Shown one piece after another: positions 1,867-40,740 of a stretch of DNA of 41,030 nt. The translations under genes and the position numbers were made by a program. Position 1 is the first letter of the stretch; each line of letters starts with the position of its first letter. The DNA comes from Pleurostoma richardsiae (Eukaryota; Ascomycota; Sordariomycetes; Calosphaeriales; Pleurostomataceae). Below the pieces are notes generated by a model. It had not been told where the DNA came from and searched no databases. It saw only the letters and a list, made by a program, of their open reading frames with translations. Location of the stretch: assembly GCA_030052745.1 (NCBI GenBank), contig JANBVO010000087.1, forward strand, positions 1 through 41,030. Reading direction: 5' to 3'.

Positions 1867-1869
1867 GAG

Positions 1870-20255: not shown

Positions 20256-21172
20256 ATGTCGGCTGGCGACTCAATCGGGCTCGATGAATCGACCGAGACC
20301 ATGGCTCTCCTCGGTCAGCACGAACGGATTCATGACCTAAACGCGGCTGACGCGACCGCAACTCTTGCTCATAAAAGCAGCGACGTTTCCCAACGACTGG
20401 CAGTCGTCCTGTCCCAGTGTCAAACTGATAGCGAGATCGACCGCGAGATGTGGGATGATTTCGAAATCCACCGTCGCTCCGCGGATACGTATATGAAGCA
20501 GTATCTGGATTGCTTGCAGCAGGTGCACGAAGAACGTTCCAGGCATGTCTACGAGATCGACGACTTTGATGACGAGGTTCCTCCCATGGGTACGTATACC
20601 GAGAGTGTTGGCCACGAAGGGGTGCTAATCTGTTGTACTTACAGACATGGCTGCGCGAGCACCAGATTCAAGTGTTATTGACGTGACGAGGGAAGAATGG
20701 CGGCTCAAGATCTCGCGCGACAGTCTTGCCCGTGATCTGCTGGCCATGCACGAAACGCTCGAGTTCCTCAAGATGAGAGCTGCCCCATCATCGAGTAGAG
20801 GTGATTTGTCCATCTCCGTGTTGTCGATTTCTGCAGCGACGCTGTAAGTCTAAGCCCAAACTACGAAATCTTCCCAGCATTTCACATCAAGGTGCAGGGG
20901 CATTTTCTTACGTGCCTAAATACAGTGGCTGCATTATGTGGTGGAACTCCCACCGCGGAGAGGCTATCGGGGTCCTTGCGGCCGACGTGGCTGGTGTTGC
21001 ATGCTACTACTCGTCTGAGATATGGAAATGGCTCAGGACACAGTCGATTGAGCGCTGCCAAGAGAAGGTTGGAGCTTTGCTTCGGCATCTCAACAAAGGT
21101 GAGGTGGACGAACGAAACCGGGAGGATCTTTGCGAAATGTCGTTTCGGATGGTAGATCACTTTAGGGAGTAG
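20256..21172 (+). CDS. Unknown three-exon helical protein with weak TM segment
   Basis: Exons 20256-20589, 20645-20843 and 20926-21172 give 259 residues. The first intron has GTACGT, GCTAATC and ACAG in matching phase 1. The second uses GTAAGT and TACAG in phase 2. The first about 190 residues are charged and helical with coiled-coil character (DSEIDREMWDDFEIHRRS; EEWRLKISRDSLARDLLAM). The third exon contains a moderately hydrophobic stretch (AIGVLAADVAGVACYYSS) and a charged helical tail. An alternative ATG at 20301 has a good context (ACCATGG). Family unknown. The gene is head-to-head with the 17.7-19.7 kb gene, and the two may work together; that is inference from arrangement only. Confidence 0.6.
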
Positions 21173-21220
21173 AGGAGAGACACCTTGTGGGCTACATTTT
21201 TTGTCAGTACAGAAGTTCCT

Positions 21221-21406
21221 CTAATCACAACAGGGTGAGAACAGTTGTGGCCCATACGTCTCCAAAAGATAGTATTTCATCTGGAGGAGCTCTGTGACTG
21301 CAGGATCGTCGATGCGCTCCTTCTGTATGACCAGACTTCGAAATAGGCTTGTCGCCTCCTCGAAGTCCATCTCTTCCAACTCGACGACGTCGAGAGCCCT
21401 TCTCTA
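21221..21406 (-). pseudogene. NB-ARC domain stub of an NLR
   Basis: A short minus-strand frame bounded by stops encodes ALDVVELEEMDFEEATSLF followed by IQKERIDDPAVTELLQ. This is the region after the nucleotide-binding site in fungal NB-ARC proteins, where V.EMD...A..LF and a later leucine-rich segment are conserved. The usual LPLAI.QAA continuation is lost, replaced by MKYYLLETYGPQ and a stop. No P-loop is found upstream. A remnant. Confidence 0.55.
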
Positions 21407-22379
21407 TGCACGATGACTAAATGCATGGCAAAACAGAAGACGGTATTTCAGAACTGCCCAGGCAGCAATGGTGGGGCGGTCACGGCGAAGGCAGATGCCC
21501 CTCCTCACTATGTATGCGGATGGCATCCAGAATGGGTGCGGGGCAGCTGCGTCGCCGTGAAGAGACCGCCTTCCTCGGAGGGGCTGTACGAGAAGGACTC
21601 GAACCAGACGAAGGAAAGGGGAATTCCAAAGACTGGAGCGAATGTCGTGACACCAAAATGTATCAGTTATATGACGCAAAGCGCTATCGGGAAGGCTCTC
21701 TAACATAGTATGTTCTCCGATAACTTCAAGCATCCACATGTGTAAGAATACATTTGCAAACTAACCAACAGCCTACATCAAGCCACCCGTTTTCGTTTCC
21801 ATAGTCCATTAGCCTTTTACCAGAGGTCTCGAGCCCTTGAAGCTGTCAGCTACCCTACGAGACTCGCAGGCCGTGGACATTCCAGCCGAGATGAGGGATG
21901 AAATGTGGAGTGGACGCGGAGAAAGGAAAAAGGAAAGGGAGAGAAGCTTCGTGGCACATCTCCGAGTGCACAGTAGCGTTGCTGATCGTCCTTGCCACGT
22001 GGGTGCTCGCATTTAGCCTGAATACACCAGAGCTCTCTTCAACTGGGGATGGGGATGCTAAGAGAAATTCTGCTGGTTCCCCGCGATCTGGGCGATGATA
22101 GCTCCCAGCGTATCGGCCCTATTGTGGGTTGCTCGTGCAGGACGCACCAGTGGCTATCCCATTCAGGTGGGTGACAAAAAGAATGACGGATCCGGTAACA
22201 GTTCGCTTAAGTATTTACAACCGGATATCTTAGCCATAATTTATATATAATGATCTTGATGCTATTTAGAATGCAAAATACATATTCTTGAGGCCATACT
22301 TTAGGAGACTACTTTGCCAATTTCTGCACTGCTCTAACACTAGTCCTTGCCCATCACCATTTGAACTCTCAATAAGACC
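21407..22379. other. Region without a supported gene
   Basis: Short frames exist on both strands around 21410-21740; a minus-strand frame near 21540-21660 contains FGVTTFAPVFGIPLSFVWF and could be an exon remnant of the same broken NLR. Nothing else is recognisable. The last about 200 bases are AT-richer and lead into the small gene at 22380. Confidence 0.3.
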
Positions 22380-22502
22380 ATGCCGGAGTCAAACACTACA
22401 ACCACCGTCACGGACATTCCCTATACGGGAGGTGGTCAAGTGACGTCCACTACAAGCCCCGACGGGATTTCCATCTCGTTCGGCTGGACCAAAACGTTTT
22501 GA
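22380..22502 (+). CDS. 40-residue Thr/Ser/Gly-rich peptide
   Basis: The ATG lies in a fungal-type context (aataagaccATG) and opens a 41-codon frame rich in Thr, Ser and Gly (TTTTVTDIPYTGGG, then SPDGISISFGW). It is probably beta-prone, with no signal peptide or membrane segment. Seven bases after the stop is a strong GTAAGT donor (22509), with a matching TTAACAG acceptor at 22576. This suggests a transcribed unit with a 3' UTR intron, or a longer protein if an earlier weak donor is used. A second short frame follows at 22591-22689. The composition recalls short amyloid signalling peptides of NLR systems, but no known motif is matched. Confidence 0.4.
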   Translation: MPESNTTTTVTDIPYTGGGQVTSTTSPDGISISFGWTKTF

Positions 22503-22590
22503 TCAGCAGTAAGTCGAACTTGTTCGGTCCTCGTGCACATTTCTTGTTCTCTGAGTTGGCACTCATGTCTTAACAGAAATTTTGTCACTT

Positions 22591-22689
22591 ATGGCAACTC
22601 TCTGGATCACACTGTACACCGCGCTTGGAGATAAGACAAGCTTGGATCTTTTCCAGGGAGGGATGGACACTTTAGGCTACCGATTTTAA
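22591..22689 (+). CDS. 32-residue frame after the intron
   Basis: This short frame starts with an ATG 14 bases after the probable acceptor at 22576 (MATLWITLYTALG...) and ends at 22689. It may be a second small open frame on the same transcript, or the 3' exon of a gene whose splicing I misjudge. Nothing is recognised. Confidence 0.2.
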   Translation: MATLWITLYTALGDKTSLDLFQGGMDTLGYRF

Positions 22690-23950
22690 GGAGTCAGCTG
22701 CCTACTTCTCCTCAATCCTTGCTGGCGCAAGCATTCTTTGTCAGCCAACTTTTCCTGGTTCTGTTCAATGTCGTCCCGGTACGATGTGGCTGGTTGTCAG
22801 CAGCCACTCGCTGTGACTATTTTAGCAGGCTTGCGAGTATCTGTCACATAGGCCAACAAGAACCATGTATCGTGCATCATAGTGCAGCACGCTAGCCGGC
22901 CTACTGCACACAATCCTGGGGCAAATTTCGCGCGTGACCACTGTATTAAATGTGTACTTCCGACAGGATCACGGTGTAGGATTCTACGAGGAGGGCAAAG
23001 AAAAAACAAGACGGAGAATGACTGAAAACAGCATAGAGTGCACACGATCACAAAGCTTTTGCCCAGCTATAGCTAGAGTAGCCTTACTGCACATACCGCT
23101 GGATACCAGCTTGATTTTGTCCGCGCACAACGTCCGCCCTGAACAGTCTCCTCACTGGCCAAAGCTTTCGCAAACACGGACTTCGGCTCCAGTAATGGTA
23201 TGCGACGATTGGACCAACATATGCCAACGCTGCGCTCCGTCTGAACACAACGAATTGGCAGCATGCGGAAGCTCATTACTATGATGCCGCCTGAGGTGAC
23301 ACTCCCCCCCGGCCCCTTATTTTTCTTTTTTCTTTTTTTCCAACCGCTTTATTGACAATCACGTCGAGAGCTGCTTCACTGGTAGGCCGATACATTCTAC
23401 TATTAATGTCGACGACGTCCAGATCTTTCGCCAGGACTATTCTCGTAGCATGACATTTGAGCCGTCGCTCGCGTTGTTCCTACTGAAATGCCGTCATGGG
23501 ATCGATCCTCGGTACATTTCGTAGCGTGGAGGCAGCAGAGAGGTTGATGGGCGCCGGGCCCGGAGACTTGGGTGTGGTCAGCAATGACTCATTATCGAAT
23601 CTGATCCATATGCGCCGAGAGATTATCGAGGCATAACTGGGTTCTGTCCTGCTCCTCCTTAACCCGCCGTGTTGAGTCCCTAGCCACATTATTTTTGGGG
23701 CCTACCGTTGATGTCGAAGTCGTGTTTCCCACTCTCGCAGTACGGGCGAAGGACCAACTCGGGGGTGCCGTCGAGAAGGGGTTCACTAGAGAGTGTGTCC
23801 TCCGCCGACGTCTGCTCGCGCCGGTAGAAGTCCTGTATCTGTGAGTTATCTGAGAGAAGAAGAGCGGCTGCAGAAAATATACTCGAGCGGGTTGGCGGCG
23901 GTGCCAGGCGATGAACGTCGAGATTCGCGCTGGATCTTTCTGAGACAAGG
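22690..23950. other. Region without a supported gene
   Basis: No gene is supportable. A C-run followed by a T-rich stretch lies at about 23307-23340. Minus-strand frames at 23480-24020 are open for up to 142 codons but show no domain. Confidence 0.35.
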
Positions 23951-23954
23951 CCGT

Positions 23955-24612
23955 ATTTAATACCCAGTCAGACTCGTTCAACGGGGCATGTATGTTTTTC
24001 CGAGCCCGGCGCATCATCACACTTCAGGGAGCGCAGGCGCTTGACGCGCGTCTGTTTCGCCCACACTAACGCTGCTGGATTGTCTACTCGTACGACCCCG
24101 TACCTCCCTGTATGCCTATTTGTGGCTGTGCTAACACTATTCTAGGTTGACATTTGATCGCAACCGGCGATGGCACGCAATCCACTGAAGCAATTGTGAA
24201 CATCTGATGCCTTCCCACTTTTCGGTGTATGCACGCCGCATTTTGCTCCCCTCGGCCCTGCCCTTTTGAACGCACGACGTATCGCATCACGGACCTACGC
24301 GGCAATACTTCTGGAAAGCCACGACGGCGAAAAACATACAAGCCGACTTGGAACCCTGCTTCGACGGCGACAACCTGTAGAGGTTTCTCTACCGGCAGGT
24401 TCGTTTCGATGGAGCGGAGTGCGCCCGCGGCCGCAACGGCGGGATTGTGGGATGGCTATTCCCTCGCTGCGCCCAGCGCACTGTTCCCAAATAGCCCACA
24501 CGTTGTGGCTGCCTTTCCGCGTTATCTGGCGATGCGACGACTACTAAAACTTAGCCTTCCTGGCGTTCCCGGCGTCCCCGCCACAACTCTATGGTTATCA
24601 GGGAGAATATGA
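23955..24612. pseudogene. Broken partial copy of the bZIP gene and its upstream region
   Basis: About 24260-24500 is directly similar to about 35045-35250, the 5' end of the bZIP gene. Both copies keep gcacgac/gcacgag..tatcg, cacgacggcgaaaa, ggcaggtt(c/t)gtttcgat and ccgcaac(g/t)gcggga. At protein level both read GRFVS(M/I)E followed by ATAGLWD. The preceding block, about 23955-24045, instead resembles the reverse complement of about 34557-34650 (shared gatgcgccgggctcggaaaa). Copy and original are therefore rearranged relative to each other. No intact frame or bZIP domain follows here. Confidence 0.65.
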
Positions 24613-25110
24613 TCCCCAATCGCGGACGAAGACATTCGGACTATCCGGCTCGGAGACAGAATCGGGGACTGATGCTAGACGAGATACTTGAAAAGCTGGA
24701 GAATGGCAAATTTGAGGATCTTGTGCACGCGGGCTGCGATGATGATTGTTCCTGAACAGCGGAAGGCACTATCTACGGATGGAGCGTTCTTCCCCCATGT
24801 TCTGATTCCTTCTGGGGACAAGGGTTCATAAGGCATATGCTTCTTGAAGTAGACAAGACTCTGCTGTGATATTGGAGCGCTTGGTAGAGACGGCTGAGAT
24901 CAATCATGCGACAAAACAGACAACAATGCTGTATTCACTAACAATCAAAACAACATGGCAGCCCCTTTCGAACTCGTGTCCGTGTCAGTTATCCGTGCTC
25001 ACTCGAGAGAACGAGGTATTGTCTGCTGTAAAGGAGTAATAAGCTTCTAATAATATCGTAAAATCGGAATGAAGTTGACACCATATCAGTTGCAATTATT
25101 CTCACGGCCC

Positions 25111-25887
25111 TCAGCGAGAGATTCTAGCTGTGCGGGAGTCAATGGCGGTTATGGTACTGCCCTCGTTGACGCGAATAAGGAATTCACTCTCCCCAGCACG
25201 ACCAATCTCAACACTAAACTCCATATGGCCAACCTGCTCAACAGTTGTCGCAGAGGGGCCTGAGTTTTCCTTGTTCTCGTCGGTCTTGTACTTCTTCCGA
25301 TAGGGAGAATCGTCAGCTAAGTCGACAGTAGAAGACCTCTTCCTTGCCGCAGACTCGTGTCTTCTCGTTTGCTGTGGTGAAAGGGCCGAGGCCCGCTTGA
25401 GAGGCGTAGGCGTAGACGGTCGCATACTGCTGCTTGGAGCTAGACTTCACGTCAGCAAGTCCTCATACGACTGCAAACTTCTATCTCTGTACCATGCTCG
25501 TCTTGTATTCGAATTTCCGAATCATCAAAGCGTTTGGTTTCATATGTTTTCGATCTCTCTCTGCTTGGAATTGATGCCGGAGTTGGAAGATACGAGCGGA
25601 TGTCTCGTTTCGGCCTATGTGGAGTTTGTGGACATCGTTGAGGGAGTCGTTGCGTCACTTGCGCTTCCTCGTTAAGCCAGATTTGATTTTCGCACTGAGT
25701 ATCTTCGTATGCCTTACGGCATCTCCAGACTATCCAGATCAGTTGTGTTTATATTCGATGGAGAAAGTACCTTACATTTCGGATTGTTATTGGGCCTCTT
25801 CGCCATCTCCAACCCACATCGGCAAAAGAAAAGATCTCCAGCACGACTCGCACCTTCATAGTGCGAATTAAGATGAGAAGAGGACAT
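25111..25887 (-). CDS. GRF-type zinc-finger protein
   Basis: Three exons (25887-25776, 25729-25493, 25439-25111) join to 225 residues. Both introns (46 and 53 nt) have GTAAGG or GTACAG donors, CTGAT/CTGAC branch sites and matching phase 1. Residues 22-58 fit a GRF zinc finger: FCRCGLEMAKRP, then NPKFWRC, then a later Cys (C50) and IWLNEE. The putative ligands are C22, C24, C41 and C50, and the first intron splits the finger. The rest is basic and disordered (KKYKTDENKENSG), with a C-terminal beta-like segment. GRF fingers bind single-stranded nucleic acid in repair enzymes such as topoisomerase III and APE2. Small stand-alone GRF proteins like this are common in fungi and uncharacterised. Confidence 0.7.
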
Positions 25888-25913
25888 AATTGCTTAATAG
25901 AGTAATGAAGGGA

Positions 25914-26150
25914 CGTAGATTGGAAATGCTGAGACTTTGGAGCGTTAGCGAGAACTGGTCCGAGATGGAGGCGAAACGCGGTTGCAAAAGCGCGTCGTGG
26001 ACTTGGATGCGGGGTTGCGGGGCGGTAGACCGTGGCGGGGTTTGGCTACACAGTTATTCTGGAAACTTCGGCAGCCTTGTCGCCCCACTGGGATGGCCAC
26101 ACTGGCGAGTAGTGTAGAATGAACGGTTGAAGCAGGCCGACGCCTCGTTC
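25914..26150. repeat. Dispersed direct repeat, copy 1 (partner 33998-34232)
   Basis: About 235 bases match 33998-34232 in the same orientation at roughly four bases in five. Shared stretches include gatggaggcgaaacgcgg, aaaagcgcgtcgtggac and ggcggggtttggct. No frame is preserved between the copies and no terminal repeats are visible. Confidence 0.75.
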
Positions 26151-26966
26151 CTTACCGTGGAGAAGGACACGGTCAGATCAACGATCAAGGAGCGAGTCAG
26201 GAGCCTGCTGTTAGGAATTCGGACTGGCCTGTCGCTTACTCCATAAAAGAGGTTGACGTGGCTGTCATTGCGGCAGGATTCTTGCCATCTCCGATTCGCA
26301 GGAAGTCGATTCAAATCTGAAGTCCCCAGATGAGTGCTTGTCATTTGAGATTAGTCCTCGCCCCGTAAGAGGTGGCTATTGAAGGTCGCGAGAGAGCAAC
26401 GTGGATTTGCTTGCAGGAGCTCGAGAAGGCCGATTGTGTTCTGCCGCCTTTGACCGCTTTGAGCGACAAGATTGCTAGAATGCCTTTGAGCAAACGCACC
26501 CCTCGTCTCACGCCTCCAGCCCGGTAAGACCCAATTGGAATGCCCCGGCAACGCGCTGGCTGGTTGGGGTTCGATGTGCTTTGCTGATGGCACAGAGGGT
26601 TCGTCTACTTTGACTGACTTCTTGTGAGGTACTCTGCGTAAGTGGCGTTTGGATTGGAAATGCCAGGCCGTGCTCGAGTTGCACAGCGAGCCCCGAGAAC
26701 CTTCGGAAGAGACGACTCAAAATGGTGCCGAAGTTCTTCTTGACGCCACTGCCACTTGTCACTGGGCTCGCCAATCTCTTTGCGTCTTCGCTAGAACATG
26801 CCGACTAGGCTTCTCAGTGCTGCAGGATAGAGAACAGAGCGGAGGAAGCCGAGAGGGTCTTCTGGAGCTCGTCACCGCGACCGTGGAAGAAAAACGATAA
26901 GACAAGATCACTATCGCTGGCGCTAGACGCAACTTCTTGAAAGGATTAAGCACTGGAATTTGGTTG
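26151..26966. other. Region without a supported gene
   Basis: Several overlapping frames of 60-105 codons occur on both strands, none with a recognisable motif or consistent splice signals. I see no gene. Confidence 0.35.
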
Positions 26967-28123
26967 CTAGTAAATACAATGCCTATTCTTACAAGCTGGG
27001 CAAGCTGACACATTGCACTCTGGGCAGCGAAAGGACCATTTTCTACGTGTCTCCCCGCAGAATACACAGCTCGCACTGCCGTTCTTCCTCAGCCAGCCGA
27101 GCCGCGGATGTGCACACCCAGGAGATTGTGAAGGTGCGGCCTGGGCTGGCTCGGCTCCTCGAAGCTCTGCTGCTTCACGCATCTTTGCCCAGTTATGACG
27201 GACGACGTCCTGCTTCTCCTCGATCAAAATAGTCTTCAGTCGCTCCCGCGCCACACGTTCCTGCTCGAGCCTGATTCTCTTTACTGCTTCTTCCGATCTC
27301 TTTTCAGCTTCCCTTTCTTTCTCTCTACGTAGTCTCTCTTTCGCCGCCTGCTCTTGTTCTTCCCGCGCTCTCCGCGCAGCTTCCCGAGAACGCTCTTCCG
27401 CTTGCCTCACTCTCTCCTCTCTAATCCTCTCGCGCTCTGCCCTCTCCCTGCCCGCTCGTTTCTCCTCTTCCATTCTCCTTGTCCTCTCAGCTTCTGCTGC
27501 TTTCCTCTCTCGTTCCACTCTTTCTCTGGCAGCACGCTGCTCCGCTTCCATGCGCCGTAGTCGCGCGACCTCGGCTGCTTTTCTTTGTATAGCCTCCTCC
27601 TCGGCTCGTTTGCGCTCTTCATCCTTGTGCTGAGTTTCTTGCCATTCCCGATACCTGGTCCATTGGTCTCGCAGGTCAAAGTACCGTGCGTCGTACGTCG
27701 AACGCTTTACCTTATCTGTCAGGCATTCGTAGGCTTCCCGGACCTAGTCAAACACCACATAGGTTAGCTGGGCTCTTGTTTGGTTGTGGTAAGCTCACGA
27801 CCCCCATTCAAGATAGACTACTGAAGACTAGCCTTGCGAAACTCGTGAGCGTCGATAGACTTGCCCGGCGCTATTTTATCAGGGTGATTCTTTTTCGCTA
27901 ATCTACGAAAGGCCAGTTTGATGTCTCGAGAGCTTGCTTGTTGTTGCAATCCAAGGTCTGCGTAATAATCCGAGACTTCAGGTTCCATTTCATTGAATGG
28001 ACCCATCTTCGGATGGAATGGCTGCCTGGTTTGGAAACACGGTTGAGCTTGAAGGGAGGTGAGAAGATGCCCTGGCGATAGCTGCTGCCAATCCAACGTT
28101 TGAACAACCGTGCATTCGTTCAT
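26967..28123 (-). CDS. J-domain, coiled-coil and zinc-ribbon protein
   Basis: Two exons (28123-27833 and 27743-26967) give 355 residues. The J domain starts at about residue 50: DYYADLGLQ, IKLAFRRLAKKNHPDK with the HPD motif near 80-82, then EFRK joined to VREAYECLTDKVKRSTYD across the intron. A basic linker (QWTRYREWQE) leads into a very long Glu/Arg/Ala-rich coiled coil (about 130-270). The C-terminus is a zinc-ribbon-like cluster with paired cysteines (CVFCGETRRKW, CPECNVSACPACKNRHC). HPD means it can probably stimulate an Hsp70. The intron appears to start with GC (AAG|GCTAGT) and has GCTAAC and CTAG. ATGs at 28006 and 27988 are alternative starts. Confidence 0.75.
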
Positions 28124-28270
28124 GGCAATCGCCAACCAGAAAAAGGAGAGTTGGCCAAACTGTCAGCGACGTGTATTGCCGTCATTGGCTGTCGGAAGCG
28201 CATCTTTCAACTTTCAGGCATTCCGAGAACCGGCGGCACCTGTGATTCACCATTTGGGATCTCTTTAGTT

Positions 28271-28538
28271 ATAATGTTGAGGCATATCTAGAAGAATGCG
28301 CTACAAACCCGAGTGCGCTGGTGATCCTTAAATTTTCGCTTCATACATTCGTGTCCCATGGCTAAACAGCATTCTCGCACATGTCGGGCCAGGCAACCCT
28401 ACCTGATGATGAGAGCGCCATCGTGGCGATTCGGGATTTGGACGTCAAAGTCTGCTTGCCGGTGGTACCGTCCTAGATCCCATAGCCCTGTCTATGGCAT
28501 TGGAGACATCCGCCGTGCCCCGAGACTGCTATGCTTGA
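28271..28538. repeat. Dispersed direct repeat, copy 2 (partner 14778-15049)
   Basis: This is the second copy of the approximately 270-base segment described at 14778. It lies about 150 bases upstream of the J-domain gene's start and is not part of any gene I can model. Confidence 0.8.
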
Positions 28539-29544
28539 TGCTTCATCTCGTGTGCTAACAACGCGACCAAGAGGACTGGCTAACACTATTGTTGCACTGG
28601 TTGTTTACGAGTGTGTGCTGAACACTTGTGCACGCGTAAGAGGCAGCGAGGTGAGGCGGGGTAATTAGTGACTGGCCAGCAATTGCTCGTAGCCAATCGC
28701 TTGATCTCTGCCAGCACTAGAGGTCTCCTACACCTAGCGAGCCTGGCGTATCCCAGGGAACGAATCGATCATCTCGCTGGTCTCGATCGTCTCGAGCGGC
28801 ACGATGGAGGCGCAGTCGTCTGAATGTATGCAGCGCGTTCACCTCGAGCGAAACAATCACCCTTGAGCCCCGGTAGCCCTGAGCGCGTCGACTCGGACGT
28901 ATTGAGGCATCACGAAACGGAGCAGCGTTACTGTGGGAGGCCAAGCTAACGTGATGCGCACAGTTGTCTTCATCCTCGCCGCCACCAGCCACACCAACAC
29001 TTCTCATCCGGCCTCTCGTCTCGCTCAGCAGAGCTCGCCGGCCGATTTCGACACCCGGAGCTCCACTCTCGATGACATCATATCATGGACAAATGAGACT
29101 ACGGAAGCCTGACGCGCTGTAGATCGCGGAACAGCCCGTGCCGCCATCCCCGGCGCCGTGGATCCATCGGCGTCCGTCACACGGTGGAACGATGACTGCC
29201 CTAGGCTCGGCCCGGTCACTAATACCGAGTACCGCGCGGGAGCCTCTTCCTCGCCTAGTGCCTATTCCGTGTGGGCTGTGGCGTGGACAGGCACGATGAT
29301 GGCATGGCGCTACCTGCTCTAGTCGAGAGGAGCAGGTAGCCTATATCTCTGTAGAATGATGCCAACAGATCAACACAACAAGCTTCATTCGTGACTAAAC
29401 CGTAGCCTTACTAGATACACAACGCTTTATTTAGTACCCACACTAGCGCAGAGTGTCGGTCAGCCTTAGTACGGTATTCAATGTCATGATCCCAAGCCTT
29501 GTAGAATCATCGTTACCTCTAACTTGAAATCAGAGTCGCTGTCG
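28539..29544. other. Gene-free stretch with an 11-bp hairpin at 29309-29340
   Basis: No coding region is supported. A perfect inverted repeat lies at 29309-29340: GCTACCTGCTC and its complement GAGCAGGTAGC, separated by 10 bases. It could form a stable hairpin or a terminator-like structure, but no gene ends nearby. Confidence 0.45.
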
Positions 29545-29810
29545 TATGGCCCCTCGGGAGGGTATGAGGTCGTGATCAAGCTGCTGCTCGCCACAGGAGA
29601 GGTCGAGGTCGATTGGAAGGGTCATGATGGTCGGATGCCGCTATTGCATGCCGCTTGGTACGGGCATGAGGCCATGGTCAAGCTGCTCCTCGCCACACGC
29701 CAGGTTGAGGTCCATTGGAAGGACGAAAATGGGCGGACGCGTCGTATGCCGCCACGAACGGTCACAAGGCCATCGTCAAACTGCTTGAGTTGTATGCCTG
29801 AACTTATTCT
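29545..29810 (+). pseudogene. Ankyrin-repeat stub with frameshift
   Basis: The frame encodes two clear ankyrin-type units of the kind at the C-terminus of fungal NLRs: VVIKLLLATGEVEVDWKGHDGR, then LLHAAWYGHEAMVKLLLATR with QVEVHWKDENGRT. At about 29740 the reading frame shifts by one base; the other frame continues with SYAATNGHKAIVKLLELYA and a stop at about 29804. No upstream NACHT or NB-ARC domain is present, so this is a detached and broken fragment. Confidence 0.65.
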
Positions 29811-31128
29811 CAATCAAGATCTCCATTATCCCTATCGCATGGTGTTGGGCCGTTGGCCATCGTCATTTTCGCAGTGTGTGAATGCTTCGCGAGGTTGGTG
29901 GTACGCTCTAGTGACTGTTGTGTTTGGATTCCGCCTTCCTAGTTTGGAAATCAGATTAGGGCAGGTAGTAGAGGAAAGCAGTCATCAAGTCCAAAGTTTA
30001 AATCCTGCCGAACACAAGGCGGTGAAGCAAATGGTGGAAGCTAAACTAGTGCTGGGAGCACGTCTCCTGCGAGACGACATTTTCTCCATCTGAGTGGACA
30101 GTGTCAATTGCACAGCAGTACTGCGATGGCGGCAAAACTGAACTTGCACTACGCCGAGGAACGGCACATCCCCCAAGGTGCCGGGACGTGCCAGCATGGG
30201 CGCAATGTGCTTCTAGATGGGGTCGGAAGTGAGCCTAAAGGCCCTCCCTCCTCTGCCCCTTTTCCTCCCCCCTTCTCTCCCTCCTTGTCCTCCCCCCTCC
30301 TGTAGACGTTGGAACCGATCCCTCTCTTACGGTGGGATTTGAGCAGTTGATCTTGCAGGAACTGGAAAACACTCATACGAGAGCGCCTGGACCTAGCCTT
30401 GGACACCCTGTTGTTCATGATGGAAACGCTCTCGGAGTGTGGGAGAGACAGGACCTCAAAGTTACAATGAGTAAGTCACAAACAGCTGTATCAGCCACGG
30501 TTTGTGTGAGCCTCAAGTGGCTTACACTTACATACCCGTTGCTAAAGGTGGCCTGTCATTGGACAACCTTGATACAGCACAGTGTGGAAATTGCTATGTT
30601 ATGTACTGTACTGTACTGTTGCGTACGCAGTAGAGATGAGAGCCAGAAAAGGGCCACTGCGTTTCGAGTCTACATAGGAGCGACAAAGAGAAACCGTTTT
30701 AATAGTGACTCTACTTCCGAACGCCAGACTTGGAGGCAATTGCCCTTCTAGTCTGTCTCATTTCTTTGTTCTGCAACAGCCATAGTTGGCTTTCATGTAT
30801 TTCGTGTACCTGGTAAGTACCGCACTGTCCGCCCAAATCCGCTCACCCGCGCTTTGAGAGGTACCAGGAGGAAGCCGAGTTGGACGGCCCGAGTGTCTGA
30901 CAAAGCAGGTACTTGCACAGTACAATAATGGAACGAAACCGCACAGTGTCAGCTTCACGTGGTGAGGTTGGCATCTTACTCCAGCCACTGTTTAGTCACC
31001 ACTTACGTAACCGTCCTCACAAACCCCGATGCTCTATCCGTGATGGCTTTTTGGGTCGTATGCGTCACAGTATCATATTTTTTCGAGTGTCTTGAGACGC
31101 CTCTACTGGTAAAAGAGACAGGATGCCC
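29811..31128. other. Gap with pyrimidine tract at about 30240-30303
   Basis: A C/T-rich run at 30240-30303 (gcccttttcctcccccctt and similar) resembles a fungal promoter tract, but no clear gene follows. The frame at 30332-30751 has a GTAAGT-like site at 30470 and no recognised domain. I do not call a gene. Confidence 0.35.
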
Positions 31129-33721
31129 TCAATGCCAGCGATACGGGTGCAGCTCTACCAGCTCTTCGGTCAGCTGGTCACCCCGTGCGTCCGCAAGCTG
31201 TCGCGTCCACGCCAGCGTGGCCTCGATCGCGTGCCGGTCCGCCGTCTCCCGCACGTCGAAAGGAGCAATGTCGCAACCATCGTCATCGCCGTAGTGGGCG
31301 CCGCGCTCTGAGCCCTCGCGGGCCATGACAGGGACCTCCGAGAACCGCAGTTGGCACCGCAGCTCTTGAATTGGGATGTTCGTGTCCTTCCACGGCTCGA
31401 GGTATAACCGTTTTCGTCGCTCTTTTAAATCAAGGCTGAGCGCTACCGCTTTCATCGTCGGGATCCGCGGGTGATCAGATACGTGGAAGAGCTTGAACTT
31501 GGTGCCAATGACGACGAATAGAGCCAGGTCGTGCATTGCCCTTAAAGGAAAAAGAGATCGGAACGTCAGGCGATTGTTTTGGACTGCAGTTTCGGGCAGC
31601 GCGCGAATGGCAGGACTCACGTATCCTTTTCATCCATCCACAGCGCGAAGGCCTCGCGGAAGTACTCCAGCTCCGCCTGTTTCCGCCCCTCGGCCTCGGC
31701 CCGGGCCCATCCCGCCGGAGTGTCCTCGGACGCGGGTTTGAACAGTGCCACGTAGTATACGGACACGCGACTGGCAGGCTCTGGCAAGATGCGGCCTGCC
31801 ATCTGTAGGTGCGAGTTGAGCGACTGCCTCGGAATCTGACCTCGATGCACTTCGCCCAGTTTTTCTGCGTAGTATTCTTGGTAGCGACCGCACCCTGCGA
31901 TTCCGAGCGGAATGAAGAAAACGAGGGCATAGAGCACGGCGAGGGTGACCGGGCGAGCTATGACGGCGGAGCCGTTCGGCGGATCAAGCACAGCATCGAG
32001 CTGGGCCCAGTCGATCCCCTTGGCTTCAAACGGTCGTCTCCACTGCGGATCATAGCGACGCTGCAGATATGTGTATTTGAGTCTCTCTGGATCGCCAAAC
32101 TCGGCCATTCCGCGACTGGGGTCAGTGGCAACCTTTACAGGGTGCCAGTCTTGCCATGGCTTCCATAGCACCGGCACGGGGATCAGGCTTGGGGTCGAGG
32201 CGTCGCTGCTCGCTTGGATCACCAGCATGCAGTGGACCTGCTTGCTAGCGGAGCCTACCCGCCGCTTTCGCTTCCTGCCAGCGGGATGTGCTCGCTGGTC
32301 TCGCCTGAGAACCACCTCGGCAGGCTCAACGCCCACGAGGACTTGGCGCAGGCGAGGCTCGTTTTGGTGCGTGCGGATGATCTTAAGATATCTGTGGAGG
32401 CCGAAACCCGCCAGGGAAAGAGCCGTGGAGGCTGTGCCTGTAAGAGTATGTGTCCTGTGACAGTGGGTCAACGAGTGCCACTTGGCGGTCAAAACAAAAA
32501 ACAAGGGGAGGGGGGGGGGGGGGGGGAAGGAGACGTACGCTTGGCTGTTTGCGTTGAGAAAGAACCGCATGAGGCTCTCGAACCCACCATCGAGACTCGC
32601 CGCCACCCAATCTGCGTCGTCTGGGCCGCCGTAGTTGACGTGTCGTTCCACGGCTTCCGCGCGCTTGTGTGTATGCACGTAAGAAATCTCGGCATGGACG
32701 GGTCTGGTCCAGAGAGGGTAGCGCAGGGAGTGGCTGACGTACGAAGGCGTCACATGGATGAGTACGAAGTGTCGGATGGAGAAGACGACTGCCTGGAAAT
32801 GGTCCCTGTTCTGTGACCTGCCCTCCCCGACCGCCGCGCAGATGGCTGCTTGGAAGCTCTCTCTGGAGAGTAGACTGCGCTCCAAATGCACGAGCACAGG
32901 CCCCAGCCAATATGACGTGCCCGGCGGTGCGCTCCCGGGTGTTTTCGGGACTTCGTGATAGTCGCTCAGGAACCGCGCCACGAGCTCTCTCGGCTCGTCG
33001 CTCCCGACCCCAAGAATGCCGTATTTCCAGCGCGCGAGATCGTTGGCATCCTGTCCCAGCTGCTCCACTCGGACAGGCCTGACACGGTCTGGTGAACAGG
33101 AAGCAATGCTCAGCAAAGCGTAGCTCACCTCTCGGAACAGGACATCTGTTTCGGAGGAAGTATCCCGTGCCTGTGTGATCTCCGGCGCGTACGTCTCGCT
33201 GATCACCTGGTAAGCCTTGTGCAGGACGGAGATCACATCAGCGGCTGGATCGGTGGTTGGGGGGGAGGAGCTCAGGAGCTGGGGCACGAGCGTGTCGTAG
33301 TTGGCAGCGGCGTGCTGGCGGTCGGTAGTCGGCGGCGGCAAGGCATCTGTGGTGATGCAGGGGGCCGCGGGTTCTGAGTGCAAGCCCAACCAGTATTCAT
33401 TGGCAGGTTGAAGGAAGGGGTTGACGTCTGAAGGGAGCTCGGCCATTCGAAAATGGCACACCTTGTTGAAGCTGATGATCTGGCGGTCGAGGTCGATCAC
33501 GTAGGTGTGTTCCAGGAACAGATCGCCCCCCGGGCTGACATAACCTGGCATCAACCTGAGGTCGTCGGTCCCAGGAACGGAGGAGAGAAGCCTATTGTCT
33601 GCTGCTGCATCGTCATCAAAGAAATGGCCCACACCTCCTGCAACCGCTCTTGCAAGTTCGCAAAATCTCTCCGGATTTCAGCAAGCCATTCCTCGTACTC
33701 TGCAGGGTCCAAAGGGATCAT
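31129..33721 (-). CDS. Large unknown fungal protein with one TM segment
   Basis: A four-exon model (33721-33633, 33591-32539, 32454-31621, 31540-31129) joins in frame to 795 residues. The second intron (84 nt, with GTACGT and GTTGACC) is itself open in frame, and the last (80 nt) has GTGAGT, CTGACG and TTTAAG. The first intron is only 41 nt and uncertain. The N-terminus is helical (PAEYEEWLAEIRRDFANLQE), followed by HTYVIDLDRQIISFNKVCHF, a motif I associate with a family of large fungal hypothetical proteins. One hydrophobic segment lies near 544-567 (VTLAVLYALVFFIPLGIAG). A charged region rich in Glu and Ala (AEAEGRKQAELEYFREAF) precedes the last exon. No enzymatic motif is seen. Function unknown. 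Confidence 0.65.
32510..32526. repeat. 17-G homopolymer inside an intron
   Basis: Seventeen consecutive G (C on the coding strand) lie within the second intron of the minus-strand gene, just after its 5' splice site. Such runs are length-unstable, and the count may be a sequencing artefact. Confidence 0.6.
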
Positions 33722-33997
33722 TAGGGTAAGCGTGTCACCTAGCCTATCCGAGTCCCTTCAAGACACGAAGCGGTTAGGGTGTGCTAGCTGACGTTCGAGA
33801 CATGGGGTCGACGTGCCAGTGATTGTAGTACACGTAGTACTTCCCGGCAAATTTCACCGAATACAAGCCTCTGGTGCCCATGGCAAAGCAAAAGTCGGTA
33901 CAGCGTTTGATGACTACGCGTAAGGTATGCTCTCTACTCGTCTTTGCAACTTTGATGTGCCCGTTGGCAAGATGAATAAAGCAAGATCTGGGGACTG

Positions 33998-34232
33998 GCG
34001 TAGATTGGAAATACTGTGACTTTGGAGTGTTAGCTGGTCAAAGATGGAGGCGAAACGCGGTTTTGCAAAAGCGCGTCGTGGACGTGGATGCGGGGCTGCG
34101 GGGCAGTAGACCTTGGCGGGGTTTGGCTGCACAGTTATTCTGAAAACTTCGACAGCCTTGTCACCCACAGCGATGGCCACGCTGGTGAGTTTTGCAGAAT
34201 GAATGGTTGAAGCAGGCCGAACCCTCTGCTCA
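33998..34232. repeat. Dispersed direct repeat, copy 2 (partner 25914-26150)
   Basis: This is the second copy of the segment described at 25914. It lies inside a 170-codon minus-strand frame (33914-34426) that I regard as fortuitous because the other copy does not preserve it. Confidence 0.7.
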
Positions 34233-34691
34233 TTATCAAGGACTGGGCCGCGAGTCGGCCTCTGATGTTCATTGCCCCGTGTCTGGGAGGCATCATATTG
34301 ACCCAGGCAGTTACGGTCGCGGCATATCGGGTATCTCGTCCCAAGAGGGATGAGTTCGCCGGCGTCGCCCCTTGACCCAAATGGGATACTACGATAGGAC
34401 TTGGACGAGATCGAGAAGTTCATCACGTTGTGGTCGATCAGGCCGGTGCCTGTGATGAGACTGGGAGTGAAGACGACTGGTCTAGGCAGGCCAGCCCAAA
34501 AAAGACGAAGTCCGCAGAGTGGTCAGCCCGCCTGGGAAGAGAAGCGCTCGGCACGTAGCGCCTGCGCTCGCGGACGAAGTGTGATGCGCCGGGCTCGGAA
34601 AAACAAACTGCGTCAAACCAATCTGGCTGGGGACAGAATGAAGCCCGCGACTCGGTGGGCATACTACTGTACAGTACTTCGCGGGGAGAAC

Positions 34692-34918
34692 GTGTGTATA
34701 AGTAAATGGTGCTACAGCAAGCTTCTTTGTTTGTAGTTAGCGGACCAAACTTGACGCCCAAAGCGGGGAAGTTAGGCAAACAGGGCCCTTCTGGGCCTTC
34801 TGATTGGTTAGGATGAGATTCTGGACGACTTAATGTGGGTCTTTTTGGGGAGTGATCTGTAGTGGCGCCCGCAGCACAAGAGCCTTCTGTTCCTCAAGGC
34901 ATGTGCTTGACGAATTAA
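34692..34918. repeat. Inverted dispersed repeat upstream of bZIP gene (partner 15556-15828)
   Basis: This segment is the reverse-complement partner of the IFI6-like promoter region. Read on the minus strand it would drive transcription leftward toward 34.6 kb, where the short frame 34438-34779 is found. No IFI6-like coding sequence remains there. Confidence 0.8.
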
Positions 34919-35112
34919 ACAGTATGCACGCTGCATCTATTACCATCCTCATCTTCGGCTTGAGGCCCGTACTGTCAGTCTTCGGCCTCGTGGACCAGAC
35001 GGCCGATGTCTACAAGGAAACGCGTCTTCCCCCCTCCCCCGCCCATTTGAGCGCACGAGATATCGACTAGACGTAGTGATGCTCTTGGAAGGTCACGACG
35101 GCGAAAAAAAAT

Positions 35113-36435
35113 ATGCAAGCCGGCGTTGAACCACGGTTCGACAGTGACAGCTGTGAAGGTCTCTCTTCTGGCAGGTTTGTTTCGATCGAACAGAACGAGC
35201 CGACGGCCGCAACTGCGGGACTGTGGGATGACAACCTGTACTTCATCTCCTCTGTGCAACTCGAGCACGGCCTGTCATCCCCACCCCAAACGTCGCTCGA
35301 CATGTCTGCCGCCGGCTCTCTGCCTTACGCAGAGTGCTTCTCAAGAAGGCAGGGCATGTACGACAGTGAGACGACGAAACTGTCGACAGCAGCGCCCTGC
35401 GTCGCGAACGGCGCGCATTTGAGTTTGGCAGCCCAGTCCTGGCCATCCGTGGGCGCGAATGGCGAACAGCAGGACGTCGCGACACCAATGCCGTACCTGA
35501 TCGACGGCAAGATGTCGTGCCCGATACATCTCGGGTTTTTCTCGCAGGAAGCACGCCAAGCCGCTCCAGATTGCGATGGGCAACAGTCAACTGTCAAATC
35601 AACAGCGACTCGAGCGTCAAGGTCCGGTTATGCTACCCTCATCTACCAACAGGATCGGGGCATTTATCTTGCCCCGGATCACGATCCGCAAGATCCGTCG
35701 CCGGGCGAGACTTGGCAGCTAGGACCCAGCGGAAGAAGTTCAGAGGACAGCAAGAGGCCAGGGCATGCTCGGAAAAGGCCGCCTCAGATGCACGCCGACA
35801 CTAGAAAGCTTCGACGACTATCGATCGAAGCATCTCTGACCGGTATCCCACATACCATGGCCTCTCAACCGGCCCAGTGCATCACGCCGCTCTCGTCCCC
35901 GTGTTGGGAATCCGTCGACCCCTATCTGCGGTCCAATCGAGACGAACTCCTAGATGGTGGATCCCTCGCAGGAGCTCCATGCTCACCGCGTCCTATTTCA
36001 CAACGGAGCGACACGTCTACCAGCTTTCGTTCTCCATCAAGTTCCACGATGACTGCCCCACGGCTCAGCAGTTCACCTTCCGCGTCATATCGCCAGGTGA
36101 GGCTGGGTTCGTCTCAGCGATTGAGCAACCGCGTCGCTGCCACCAAGTACCGTGCCAAGACGAAAGCGGCTATCAGCCGTTTGGAGGCGGACTCTAAGTT
36201 GATCTCAGAGCAGCATAAAGTTCTCTCCCACAGGGTAGCAATGCTAAGAGACGAGGTGCTAGCCCTCAAAACAGAACTTTTGAAACACAGCCGATGCGAC
36301 TGCACATCGATCCAGCAGTACCTCAGTAACGCTGCTGCACGGATCGGACATGATGCTAAGGATCCCTCTGGCGAGGCAGGGACACAGGAGATGCACGAAG
36401 TACTTCACCGCTGTTGCCATCCTCGGAGCGATTGA
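35113..36435 (+). CDS. bZIP transcription factor
   Basis: A single-exon 440-residue frame. The first about 330 residues are low-complexity (Ser, Pro, Arg, Gln), as expected for activation or regulatory sequence. Residues about 334-355 are the basic region (RLSNRVAATKYRAKTKAA: the N-x-x-A-A-x-x-x-R pattern with Arg at the expected DNA-contact position). The leucine zipper follows with LEADSKLI, LSHRVAMLRDEVLALKTELL. The C-terminal motif CDCTSIQQYLSNAA is shared by fungal ATF/CREB-like bZIP proteins. It is probably a nuclear DNA-binding dimer. The start is uncertain: an upstream frame (34852-35070) could be an earlier exon, and the N-terminal part is duplicated at 24.3 kb. It converges on the recombinase gene, 149 bases apart. 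Confidence 0.75.
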   Translation: MQAGVEPRFDSDSCEGLSSGRFVSIEQNEPTAATAGLWDDNLYFISSVQLEHGLSSPPQTSLDMSAAGSLPYAECFSRRQGMYDSETTKLSTAAPCVANGAHLSLAAQSWPSVGANGEQQDVATPMPYLIDGKMSCPIHLGFFSQEARQAAPDCDGQQSTVKSTATRASRSGYATLIYQQDRGIYLAPDHDPQDPSPGETWQLGPSGRSSEDSKRPGHARKRPPQMHADTRKLRRLSIEASLTGIPHTMASQPAQCITPLSSPCWESVDPYLRSNRDELLDGGSLAGAPCSPRPISQRSDTSTSFRSPSSSTMTAPRLSSSPSASYRQVRLGSSQRLSNRVAATKYRAKTKAAISRLEADSKLISEQHKVLSHRVAMLRDEVLALKTELLKHSRCDCTSIQQYLSNAAARIGHDAKDPSGEAGTQEMHEVLHRCCHPRSD

Positions 36436-36584
36436 GGACGACGAGCCACCATCCAGCGCCTCCAGCATCCCGAAACTGCAGTCAAGGCCGCCGACGCTCA
36501 TACCCGTCGGCAAGGCCTCGTCGTAGAGAGGAGGGAGGAAATCTTGATCAATACTGTACGTCGGCATGGGCCGCATGATCATCG

Positions 36585-39310
36585 TCACTGTCGCAGCTTG
36601 ACGCCGTGGACTGTTTGTACGTGGTGTTTGAAATGGTCCAGGTTTTCCAAGAAATCCCCCAGAAGTTTGCAATCAGGATGGTGGCAGACAAACCTTCCTC
36701 CGACCGGCCCGCGTCGCAGGTGCACGTTCTCGACGTGGTCCATCATGTGGGAGACACGGCTGAAAGTGCGTGTGCGATCCGTATACGACAGCGTCTCATC
36801 TCCCACGCAGTAAATGCACTGCGTCCTCTCCAGTACTACTGGGATCTCCTCGTATTTCATCGCTGGCGGAACGTTTGACGGCCTGCCGCCAGGACGCGGT
36901 CCGCACAGCGGCGATGGGCGTGGCGCCCGTATCTCCCGCCGGGATGCGAGTGCGACCATGAGATTGATGGCCGTTATCTTGCGCTCCGTCAGACGCTTCC
37001 AGTCGAGGTCCATGTTGAAGTCGCACAGGATCGCCTGCAGCTGGTTCCGCTCTTCCAGCTGGTGTTGGACAACTGGCTCCGTCTCGTCGGCTGCCGCCGT
37101 CCCGCTCAGCTGCCGCTCTAGTTCTTCATTGTGGATCCGACGTCGCAAGGCATCTTGATACACTCTCGTCATGTCGTCTCGAAAATTCTTCTCGGCGTTC
37201 TTGAGATCTCTCTGGAGCTGGCGATACTCGTCGCGGATGGTCTGCGGGGCCCGTTTGATGAACCTATATTCCCGTCGAATGCTGTGAAACATCTGCTTAA
37301 CTCGCCTTGAAAGAGCAACGATGTCCGGGTCGGGATCAATCTTGTCGAGCTCGGCCCGGGGAATCTCCGTGGGGACCTCTGGGTTGCATCTGATGCTCAT
37401 GTGGATGAAGGCCCGCGTGAGGCCATCAGCCGACGGATCTCTCTCCAGGAACGCATCCTGCACGTTGAATCCGACTCGGTGGTTGAGGTAGGCGTTCGCC
37501 AGGCATCCAGTCATAGGGTCGTGCCGCATGACCTGGTCGACGACCATATCCGGCGCCCGCCCGAGGATCGCGTTCGCGTTGCCGCGACGCATGCAATACG
37601 ACGTCCACTTCTCCTCGGACCCGAGGCCTTGACCAATACGGTCAAGGTACAATGCGTATGTGGAATACCTCATCGGGTCTGATTTCGACTTCTCCCATCC
37701 TCCCGTCGCGGTCCGCACCGACTTGCGGAAGAGGGGCTGCTTCATCACGCCGGACTTCCAGTTCACCTTCGTCGCACGCTTCCCGAGCCGCGTCGAGAAG
37801 AAGGGTTCGGCGGTGGTATAGCCGCCAACTTCGACAGCGTCGTCGAGGATCGCGCGGGCCAGGATGTGGCTGATGGGACACAGGATCGCAAGAGGATGCT
37901 CGCGAAACAAGAAGACGGTCCTGGAGAGGAGTCAACGCATGAACCAAGCCAGATGGAGTCACCAGGTGGATCAGTACGGTTTTGGCTTGTTGTCCGACCC
38001 TTTGTGGTATCGAAAGTAGACCTCCATCGCGAGGACATCTCTGCCGCCCTGATTAGGGTCCTTGACCATCCAGAGGGTGATATCCTCATAGCAGAGTGCC
38101 TTGTGTTCCCGGGTCGGGTTGCCGAGCTCGTCCGACCCGGGGCCATGAGAGGTTCGAGAGCACCCGGCGGCTTCGCCATGACTGCCGTCATCGGCAACTT
38201 CCTCGTCATCCAGTTCAGTGTCGCACGTCATGTCGCTATCGTATCCGTCATCGTCAAAGGTCGATGTCCTGTCTTCTTCATCTTCGTCGTTCTCATCCTC
38301 GTCCTCGTTCTCGGCGTCCTCGTCGCTGCAGCTGTCCACCTGCATGACGTCGTGCATAGCGTCGTGCATGAAATCATCGTCCGAACCGGCACGACTGACG
38401 CCTTGAGGACCACGGGTGCTGGGTCTATAATCGATCCCATCGTCCGGCTCGTCCTTCAAGGGATCCCCACCGCCCCTGCTCTTGGTTCCGTCAACAAGCT
38501 CGGCAGGCCGGCAGGCCGTATACGCCTGGAAGAGCATGATCGTCGGCAGGTCGAGCCGATCGGCCTCGGTAGGAAACACCGACCTGTCGCGGGACCAGTG
38601 GTGGGTGAGCCCCATGAGGAGGTCATCCACGCCCAGCACCGGCTTCGCTTTGGGAAGCATGTCCAGGTGAAACTCTTCCGTCAAGTCCCTCCGGATGTAC
38701 TTCGACGTGGTCAGCGTCTTCCGCGGCAGGCTATCACGCTCTCGCGAGGCACGTGGCCATACCTTGACGACTTCCTCGCAGTCATTCCCATTGATGACTC
38801 TGCCCTTGTTGGATCGCCGGTACAATAGCTTGAAATCCCGCCAATACTGGTTGATGCTCTTCTGCTTCGACCTCCTGCCCCTCACGAGCCTCGGCTGCAC
38901 ATATGTCTTGCATATCCAGTGCAGGAAGGTCATGATCAGCCCCTTGTCGCAGTTCTTCGCCTTGATGGCATTCTTCCAAGGCCCATGTTCGTTTTCACGG
39001 CAGAACCTGGGTCGTCAGCGTGACTTGAACAAGTGTTCCTCGAGGACCTTCTCCCTCCACCACCAGCTCCTTACCCGATGAACCTCTTCTTGATGTAGTA
39101 TATGTTGCACTTCGTCGTGTCAGCATCCAGCGGGCGGATGAACTCCGTCTTGTTCAGCTTCTTTCGCATTCGCTGGTAACCCTGTGCGCCGCACATGTTC
39201 GGCTGCTGTTCTTTATGGACAGCGGCCATACGGTGGCGGCGCTTTGCCGCTCTCTGGAGGGCACCGAGGACATCTGGGTGAAGATCTCGACTGGTTGTGT
39301 CTGGCGCCAT
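36585..39310 (-). CDS. DUF3435 (FluG-type) tyrosine recombinase with C2H2 fingers
   Basis: Three exons (39310-39075, 39006-37978, 37920-36585) give 866 residues. Both introns (68 and 57 nt) have clear signals (GTAAGG with GCTGACG; GTACTG with TTGAC) and consistent phase 2. The core follows the DUF3435 tyrosine-recombinase layout: FLHWICKTYV and QYWRDFKLLYRR in the N-terminal core-binding part; YTACRPAELVDG with the first catalytic Arg (about 245); an acidic insert (about 293-340); YCMRRGNANAI with the second Arg (about 533); MRHDP with the His (555); and ANAYLN with the presumed nucleophile Tyr (566). Two zinc fingers end the protein (CIYC...HMMDHVENVH and CHHPDC...HFKHHVQTVH). The gene looks complete. 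DUF3435 enzymes include Starship captains and Crypton-like recombinases. Confidence 0.88.
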
Positions 39311-39354
39311 GGCTGTGGTGTAGTGATGGGCTCTCGATCAGGTTTGATAGGAGC

Positions 39355-39460
39355 AAGGCAGAGAGAAGAAAGAGAGGAGGAGAGGGAGAGGGAGAAGGAG
39401 AAGGGGGACGAGAAAGGGGACGAGAAGGAGGAGGGGGAGGAGGAGGGGAGCGAGAGGATG
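39355..39460 (-). promoter_or_regulatory. Pyrimidine-rich tract upstream of the recombinase
   Basis: Read on the recombinase strand this is about 100 bases of almost pure C/T, starting about 45 bases before the ATG. That is the usual form and position of fungal core-promoter CT tracts. A second, looser mixed tract lies at 39705-39795. Confidence 0.5.
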
Positions 39461-39801
39461 GCATGTAGGTAATGGGGTAGAGGACAAAGTCCATTGTACA
39501 GCAGATAGCAGGTACAGATTCGTTCGAGAGCCTCTGGTGATTGACATGCCTTGGGAGCTGCCGAAGGGCATCCCCATCACTGGCCCTCCCCTTTTCTCCG
39601 AGGCCGCTTGGCCCCTGGAGCGGCTTGCTCTGAAGGCGAGCCATTTGAGGAAGCACTGGAGATGGTGATGGACCTGGCCATGCCTCGTACTTTTCTCGTT
39701 ACACTCACCCCCTCCCTTCCCCCCCTCTGTCTGTCCCGGCTGGCATGTGGGAGGGAGGAGGAGTTGTTGTACGGGGGAGGGAGAGGGAGGCTCGCGGTCG
39801 A

Positions 39802-39862
39802 AGCCGCCTAAAGCGGCGTCAGGTGCCACCAGATCCAGTGGGCAAGACCGCGACACTTGGCT
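39802..39862. other. GC/AT composition junction with small hairpin
   Basis: DNA to the left is GC-balanced; from about 39862 it is strongly AT-rich. A short inverted repeat (gccgcctaaagcggc) sits about 45 bases inside the GC side. The junction also cuts the hAT transposase frame: codons on the AT side are transposase-like, while those on the GC side encode unrelated sequence. This is the best candidate for an element boundary in the window. Confidence 0.6.
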
Positions 39863-40163
39863 TTATTATATAATAAATATTCTTCTTTTTTTTCAGAAGA
39901 AGATATAAATAATTCATCGTCTGAAGAATTGTTTTGTAAAGGAGGTGAAGGTGTAGCGTTATATATATCTTCGTTAATTTCATCAAATGAAATATTAGGA
40001 TCAGTATTAATTATTAATCCTTCTTTTTCTTTTTTAATACTATATAATGTTAATATATGAAATATAAATATAATAAAATAAGTTAATAACTTACTTATAA
40101 TACTCATCTATGAGTAAATTTAAAACGTCGATATGAATATCTTGATAGTGATTTAACAAGCCG

Positions 40164-40212
40164 GTTTTAAATAGCCTTGTTTTAAATAGCCTTGTTTTAA
40201 ATAGCCTTGTTT
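40164..40212 (-). repeat. 15-bp in-frame tandem repeat after LDPRFK
   Basis: The unit ttttaaatagccttg is repeated three times with a partial fourth. On the transposase strand it adds five codons (Lys-Thr-Arg-Leu-Phe) per unit without breaking the frame. Confidence 0.75.
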
Positions 40213-40366
40213 TGAAACGCGGATCCAATATAAGGCTTATTATATAAGGTTTATAAGAAGATATTTCTTCTTTAGTAAGTTTTTGAGGGAAATATTTAGT
40301 TAATTTAACAAGGCTTTTATCAATAGCACTTATTAAATTAGTAAGAACTTGAGCCTATTTATATAA

Positions 40367-40370
<4 letters not shown>

Positions 40371-40400
<30 letters not shown>
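40371..40400. repeat. AT dinucleotide microsatellite
   Basis: Fifteen consecutive AT units lie within the predicted first intron of the hAT fragment. Confidence 0.8.
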
Positions 40401-40403
<3 letters not shown>

Positions 40404-40740
40404 AAAGTAATTAAAAAATACCTACAATTGATTTATCTTTTGTTTTTTCTTTAAAGCTTTGTTTAAGTATATTAAGCTTTTTATAAATAGTATATATTGA
40501 AATTAAGGCGTTAGGTAGAGTAATATAAAGTTGACCTTGAAGTAAAACCGATGGTTTTATAAAAACTTCAAGTATTTGTATAAGATGGTTAATTATAAAC
40601 CAATCGATAGGCTTAAAATAAAGTTCTTTGAATTCGTTATTTGTTGTATTTGAGTTGATATATTCTAAGGCTTGTTTAGCCTCTTTAATTGCTTTAAGCA
40701 TTTTATAAGTCGAATTCCATCGCGTAACGTTATCTATAGT

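Follow-up and report, generated by a model that had tools for sequence, protein, structure and literature searches.

The window analysed here, 41,030 nucleotides of Pleurostoma richardsiae DNA that make up the entire contig C123 of an assembly of 39.4 Mb in 136 contigs, has a GC content of 0.48 to 0.64 (1-kb windows) until an abrupt fall near 39.86 kb, beyond which it is 0.22. Scanning 38.5–41.0 kb placed the best GC change point at 39,861 (0.59 to 0.22), in agreement with the sharp GC/AT junction of the original prediction, and comparison with a related copy on contig C80 and with uninterrupted target repeats set the element boundary at ~39,866/39,867, to within a few bases. The DNA outside this boundary (39867..40737, GC 0.23, no strand assigned) corresponds to the right half of an AT-rich repeat with uninterrupted relatives on C104, C135, C36 and C115. 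With ratios of 1.13 for TA/AT and 0.79 for (CA+TG)/(AC+GT), we take it, together with the other AT-rich stretches that have such ratios, to be RIP-like on thresholds from the literature; by the same thresholds, the captain unit and the cargo of the window are free of RIP-like ratios. A 10-bp AT-rich tandem repeat at the contig end (40919-41030) is probably the reason why the assembly stops there.

The first gene at this 5' edge of the element is its captain (36585..39310, minus strand), a predicted DUF3435 tyrosine recombinase of 866 aa. Its exons (39310-39075, 39006-37978 and 37920-36585) are those of a predicted gene model, and the two introns, with GT...AG ends, are both present again in the C80 copy. 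The ATG lies 556 bp inside the junction, with transcription directed away from the junction and into the element, an arrangement also seen on C80. Pfam assigned the spliced 866-aa protein to PF11917 (DUF3435) with E = 1.7e-53, as the sole family at E ≤ 10, so that an apparently intact DUF3435 recombinase about 550 bases inside the junction and pointing away from it, as first proposed, was indeed found; a PDB sequence search with the captain as query returned nothing at E ≤ 1. The 5' leader from tip to ATG (39311..39866, minus strand) is common to C80 (88% over window 39313-39876), ends abruptly and contains a possible hairpin, GCCGC-CTAAA-GCGGC (39803-39817), spotted by eye.

Among the catalytic residues, R245 (in CRPAE), Y530-x-x-R533 and a nucleophile candidate, Y566, were located by motif and set against the residue list in section 11 of PMC12506042, a comparison at motif level in which the catalytic Lys is not among the residues placed. 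That section gives R260, Y424, R427 and Y458 for the captain of the Starship Sanctuary and Y381 and Y416 as required in HhpA; by these residue numbers, the Y-to-Y spacing is similar in all three, the window captain having 36, Sanctuary 34 and HhpA 35. The window captain looks functional. C-terminal zinc fingers had also been predicted, and a regular expression did pick out two C2H2-like Cys/His patterns (residues 790-822 and 834-860), whereas Pfam zinc-finger models gave no match to the captain.

Genes behind the captain

The DNA to the left of the captain unit (1..36476, no strand assigned) is presumed cargo. An AT-rich target half is absent from window positions 1-39,800, where the lone 200-bp bin below 0.42 GC is one of 0.37 at 22.2 kb, and the left end of the element would lie beyond the contig. 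Since no left half of the target occurs anywhere in the window, the insert would measure at least about 39.9 kb, and at that size it is too long for a Crypton. Cryptons are mobilised by a tyrosine recombinase, with domains of the GCR1_C or DUF3504 type, and are compact elements without cargo that have both flanks within a few kb; Pfam detected neither type of domain in the captain protein at E ≤ 10.

The NLR expected behind the captain was recovered as a gene at 3433-5943 (minus strand) with NPHP3_N (E = 2.5e-23), ankyrin and DUF7104 repeats, NLRs being an accessory class of Starships along with patatin, ferric reductase and DUF3723; within the gene, tandem units every 90-96 bp (3912-4593) encode the DUF7104 repeats. 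The proposed patatin came down to a short ORF (17270-17575, plus strand) that has the patatin start motif LALDGGGVRGLSS with a Pfam E of 0.049, under the cut-off, and is probably one exon or a decayed fragment. As substantial cargo it was not upheld, none of ten patatin matches in a genome-wide search being on the window's contig. The NB-ARC fragments suggested earlier did not materialise: the domain was absent from the families of nine ORFs, from the 11 families obtained at E ≤ 0.01 with 112 of the 145 ORFs of at least 90 aa outside the captain region and, at E ≤ 1, from the 25 families listed out of 44.

Other cargo candidates are a chromodomain ORF (1870..2415, plus strand, E = 5e-6), a DUF6601 gene (8565..9506, minus strand, E = 2e-78), a bZIP-type ORF adjoining the captain (35113..36435, plus strand, E = 7e-7) and ankyrin ORFs. 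DnaJ and F-box domains, with positions not assigned, also occur among the window ORFs scanned, in which DUF3723 and ferric reductase were not found. Three pairs of segments in the presumed cargo are 84-98% alike (14778-15049/28271-28538, 25914-26146/33999-34226 and, inverted, 15556-15835/34684-34914), which suggests internal duplication.

A second copy on C80 and uninterrupted target repeats

We found that C80:253047-256405 matches window 36,477-39,876 with 92% identity, with the same terminus and a different flank. The match, at 94% in the last 200-bp bin on the right, runs to CCGCGACACTTGGCTTTATT and then ends, and beyond this shared terminus the window continues into one AT-rich repeat and C80 into another. 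The C80 captain copy is likewise open (857 aa), and because dN is 0.028 and dS 0.163 between the two copies (dN/dS ~0.17, NG86), the captain is, on this pairwise estimate, under purifying selection. On the other side, homology ends ~110 bp beyond the captain stop codon, and behind the captain the window and the remaining 13 kb of C80 share just four short pieces (73-400 bp, 67-84%). The cargo differs between the two, since sulfotransferase, NmrA-like and Zn2Cys6 factor genes lie downstream of the captain on C80 (10 of the 13 ORFs of at least 150 aa there were scanned).

The target sites, TATTATAATAT in the window and TATATAATAAA on C80, are inside two repeat families. For the window repeat, all four relatives fetched (C104, C135, C36 and C115) run through the insertion site. 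For the C80 repeat, eight other copies span the site by coordinates, and all six that were fetched (C98, C64 twice, C104, C87 and C57) do so by sequence, reading from ...taaacg straight into TATTATAAT... With the target repeats uninterrupted elsewhere in the genome, the GC-rich side has the appearance of an insertion in the window as well as on C80, the uninterrupted sites being paralogous copies in one assembly and not allelic ones. When the left half of the window target was used as query, four of twelve matches (the query's own copy included) reached the site and ran through it, none of the four being joined there to GC-rich DNA; the remaining ones stopped before the site or were short pieces. 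C126 also has a copy of the C80 repeat, which we considered as a further insertion and rejected because it is rearranged internally and has nothing inserted at the site.

Relatives (68-81% DNA identity) of window segments 6246-10591 and 25054-25446 are clustered at C80:227.2-230.4 kb. This cluster lies across a 15-kb AT-rich island, on its outer side from the C80 captain, and its genes, which resemble those at 6-10 kb of the window, were for that reason rejected as shared cargo.

A candidate opposite end on C64

The captain-end terminus of the window (39841..39866, minus strand) reads inward as ATAAAGCCAAGTGTCGCGGTCTTGCC and is the inverted-repeat partner of an end at C64:166244. This end came to light in a search for the C80 repeat's left half, of which one copy (C64:165641-166243) halts exactly at the site. 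It ends in ...aaacgTATTAT, retaining the TATTAT, and continues with CTCAGTGTCGCGGCCTGCC; the DNA joined there begins CTCAGTGTCGCGGCC, the inverted repeat of the captain end. Three separate contigs thus carry AGTGTCGCGG(T/C)CT: C123 and C80 at their captain ends, C64 at its opposite-type end. In the 39.4-Mb assembly the 13-base pattern AGTGTCGCGGYCT has four matches, three of them at the AT/GC junctions of C123, C80 and C64 and the fourth on C1 in ordinary GC-rich DNA (three matches for the reversed-pattern control). When A/T bases were required just outside the pattern, the four matches were the same three and one on C133 in GC-rich DNA (two for the control). The tip-like motifs at C1:427257 and C133:17692 were rejected as ends and put down to chance, given their GC-rich surroundings. 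As for the two 40-bp tips, 31 of 20,000 random window 40-mers reach as high a local alignment score, so that what gives the match its strength is its position at identical target sites and not simply the score.

TATTAT is kept at the C64 end and recurs on another contig, where the C80 end occupies this same target site; it is likely a direct repeat of the C80/C64 target. C64 and C80 may bound a single, very large element, or they may be different insertions at one site. The 16 stretches sampled on C64 between 175 kb and the end of the contig are all GC-rich (0.51-0.62), which does not discriminate between one element and two. A second copy of the C64 end was sought in the assembly, and its first 1.75 kb matched elsewhere over 103 bp on C93 only.

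Near this non-captain end, C64:165900-171000 contains a 608-aa ORF (positions 2518-4344 of that segment) with a Myb-like match that narrowly missed the Pfam cut-off, and a 0.2-kb piece of the ORF recurs, with 83% identity, beside a captain fragment on C108. Pairwise E values of 2e-5 and 1e-4 appeared to link this Myb-like gene to window ORFs at 868-2415, which would have put the window close to the left end of its element; the link was dropped, as a genome search with the protein gave five matches and none in the window. C64 also has a divergent second DUF3435 gene (C64:68800-73200), whose last exon shows ~30% amino acid identity. It lies directly inside a further AT/GC junction, at 70.05 kb, has similar C-terminal Cys/His patterns by eye and is probably a different captain.

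Discussion

We conclude, with a probability of roughly 0.87, that the window contains one end of a Starship (the 5' end, nearest the captain), this being a giant cargo element moved by its own DUF3435 recombinase. The Starship-like end originally predicted at the right of the window is supported by the second insertion on C80, the uninterrupted target repeats, the inverted end on C64 and the dN/dS of ~0.17, and the element is a well-supported new example of an already known kind of mobile element. The recombinase, encoded by the element's first gene, would be expressed, bind the inverted termini (AGTGTCGCGGYCT...) and recognise an AT-rich target with a TAT-type core, which it would cut and join by Cre-like site-specific strand exchange, so inserting the element, with a short direct repeat left behind (TATTAT in the case of C80/C64). 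In the window, the element would have entered an AT-rich repeat that is presumably RIP-like. The window's own left end should then carry the same terminus, positions 1-39,866 would all belong to one element, and C64 and C80 would represent one kind of element. The strand-exchange chemistry attributed to the captain is by analogy with its family, as described in PMC12153272 and PMC12506042.

Several traits agree with those of Starships as published. AT-rich targets, and one site invaded by orthologous captains with unlike cargo, are described in PMC11623301 and PMC12289983. Like the window, Prometheus-family Starships (for example Prometheus, Gnosis and Logos) have a captain at the 5' edge, cargo and an AT-rich target according to PMC11623301, and in Table 1 of PMC12153272 the target of Logos h1 is given as A(N10)TACTTATTA(N)A(N6)A; the window and C80 targets are inside two repeat families, and the likeness to the Prometheus family is one of description, not of captain sequence. 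Sanctuary, which with Horizon is described from B. sorokiniana and P. tritici-repentis in PMC12506042, has a captain ~350 bp from its 5' edge (556 bp in the window), with a YR domain, a C-terminal DNA-binding domain and the R, Y-x-x-R and Y residues, and a 6-bp direct repeat; its captain is 786 aa long (866 aa in the window), the two being compared by features and not by sequence. In Verticillium, Ar1h1 and Ar1h2 have orthologous captains, non-syntenic cargo and orthologous sites (PMC12289983), whereas the window and C80 insertions are in two different repeat families and it is C80 and C64 that are at the same site. Terminal inverted repeats were reported for 18 of 20 Starships, and so are not universal (PMC12153272), and Starship sizes of 15 kb to about 700 kb are given in PMC12134995. 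Cryptons share mobilisation by a tyrosine recombinase with the window element (PMC12134995), which differs from them in its match to DUF3435 only, its far longer insert and its inverted termini.

Several findings count against the Starship reading: neither a left end nor its direct repeat turned up for the window, the C64 end matched nothing else beyond 103 bp on C93, homology to C80 is largely lost behind the captain, a 72% identical captain on C85 has no recognisable end, DUF3723 and ferric reductase were missing from the ORFs scanned, and random 40-mers can reach the alignment score of the tips. The window element may be derelict, as its far end is unassembled, its cargo is not common to C80 and captain fragments occur elsewhere. 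A derelict or rearranged Starship, in which the captain end is genuine and the DNA leftward of it is no longer one mobile unit owing to rearrangement or loss of the far end, is a possibility that we regard as unlikely, albeit one that overlaps with the Starship reading, which concerns the kind of element and not its present mobility. It would fit a far end outside the assembled contig, a patatin present as a fragment and the captain fragments on C64 (at 230 kb, 91% identical), C108 and C103, which show, as far as such remnants can tell, that captains of the window's group decay in this genome. Against it, the captain is open in both copies and apparently under purifying selection, and neither the captain unit nor the cargo of the window has RIP-like ratios.

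Much less probable is a small, solo Crypton-like element of 3.4 kb (tip to captain stop) at the AT/GC boundary, with host chromosome to the left of 36.4 kb. Continuous homology between the window and C80 is indeed confined to 36,477-39,876, solo DUF3435 genes are common according to PMC12134995, and a 72% identical captain on C85 is in GC-rich surroundings (no 400-bp bin below 0.42 GC in 126-166 kb), where the sole match to the 13-base tip with up to two mismatches is ~17 kb from its 5' end, so that it has no recognisable element end. Nonetheless, a solo element should be followed at 36.4 kb by the other half of the repeat, and both copies instead adjoin GC-rich DNA there, unlike in the two; moreover, the left edge of homology fades (0.74 identity in the last bin) instead of stopping sharply, no match to the 17-base tip with up to three mismatches was found in the window or C80:250.0-269.8 kb besides the two termini, and Pfam matches the protein to DUF3435 only at E ≤ 10. 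It is hardly credible, even for a small contig that ends in AT-rich tandem repeats, that an AT-rich island was brought next to GC-rich DNA by a chromosomal break or a join in the assembly and that the recombinase gene is there by chance, given that on C80 this terminus borders another AT-rich repeat, unlike that of the window, and that a third contig, C64, shows the corresponding opposite end at exactly the same target base.

For a Starship end in the window, the evidence for its boundary is unusually clear for a single assembly used without strain comparison. It provides a nearly base-resolved end, a target site and an inverted terminus for Starships of a group whose targets are AT-rich, presumably RIP-like repeats, with the same target base used by the C64/C80 pair. 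The genome also has two captains of this group that appear intact and differ in their cargo, material for the question of whether cargo or captain is the unit of movement. Because the window and C80 share 92% identity over the stretch that begins at the terminus and ends shortly after the captain stop codon, and have hardly anything in common beyond it, a tip-plus-captain cassette (~3.4 kb) might have been swapped between Starships as a module, a doubtful idea that we put forward tentatively; captain swapping is raised as an open question in PMC12134995. If such cassette exchange were true, the two copies would be within-genome evidence for captain swapping.
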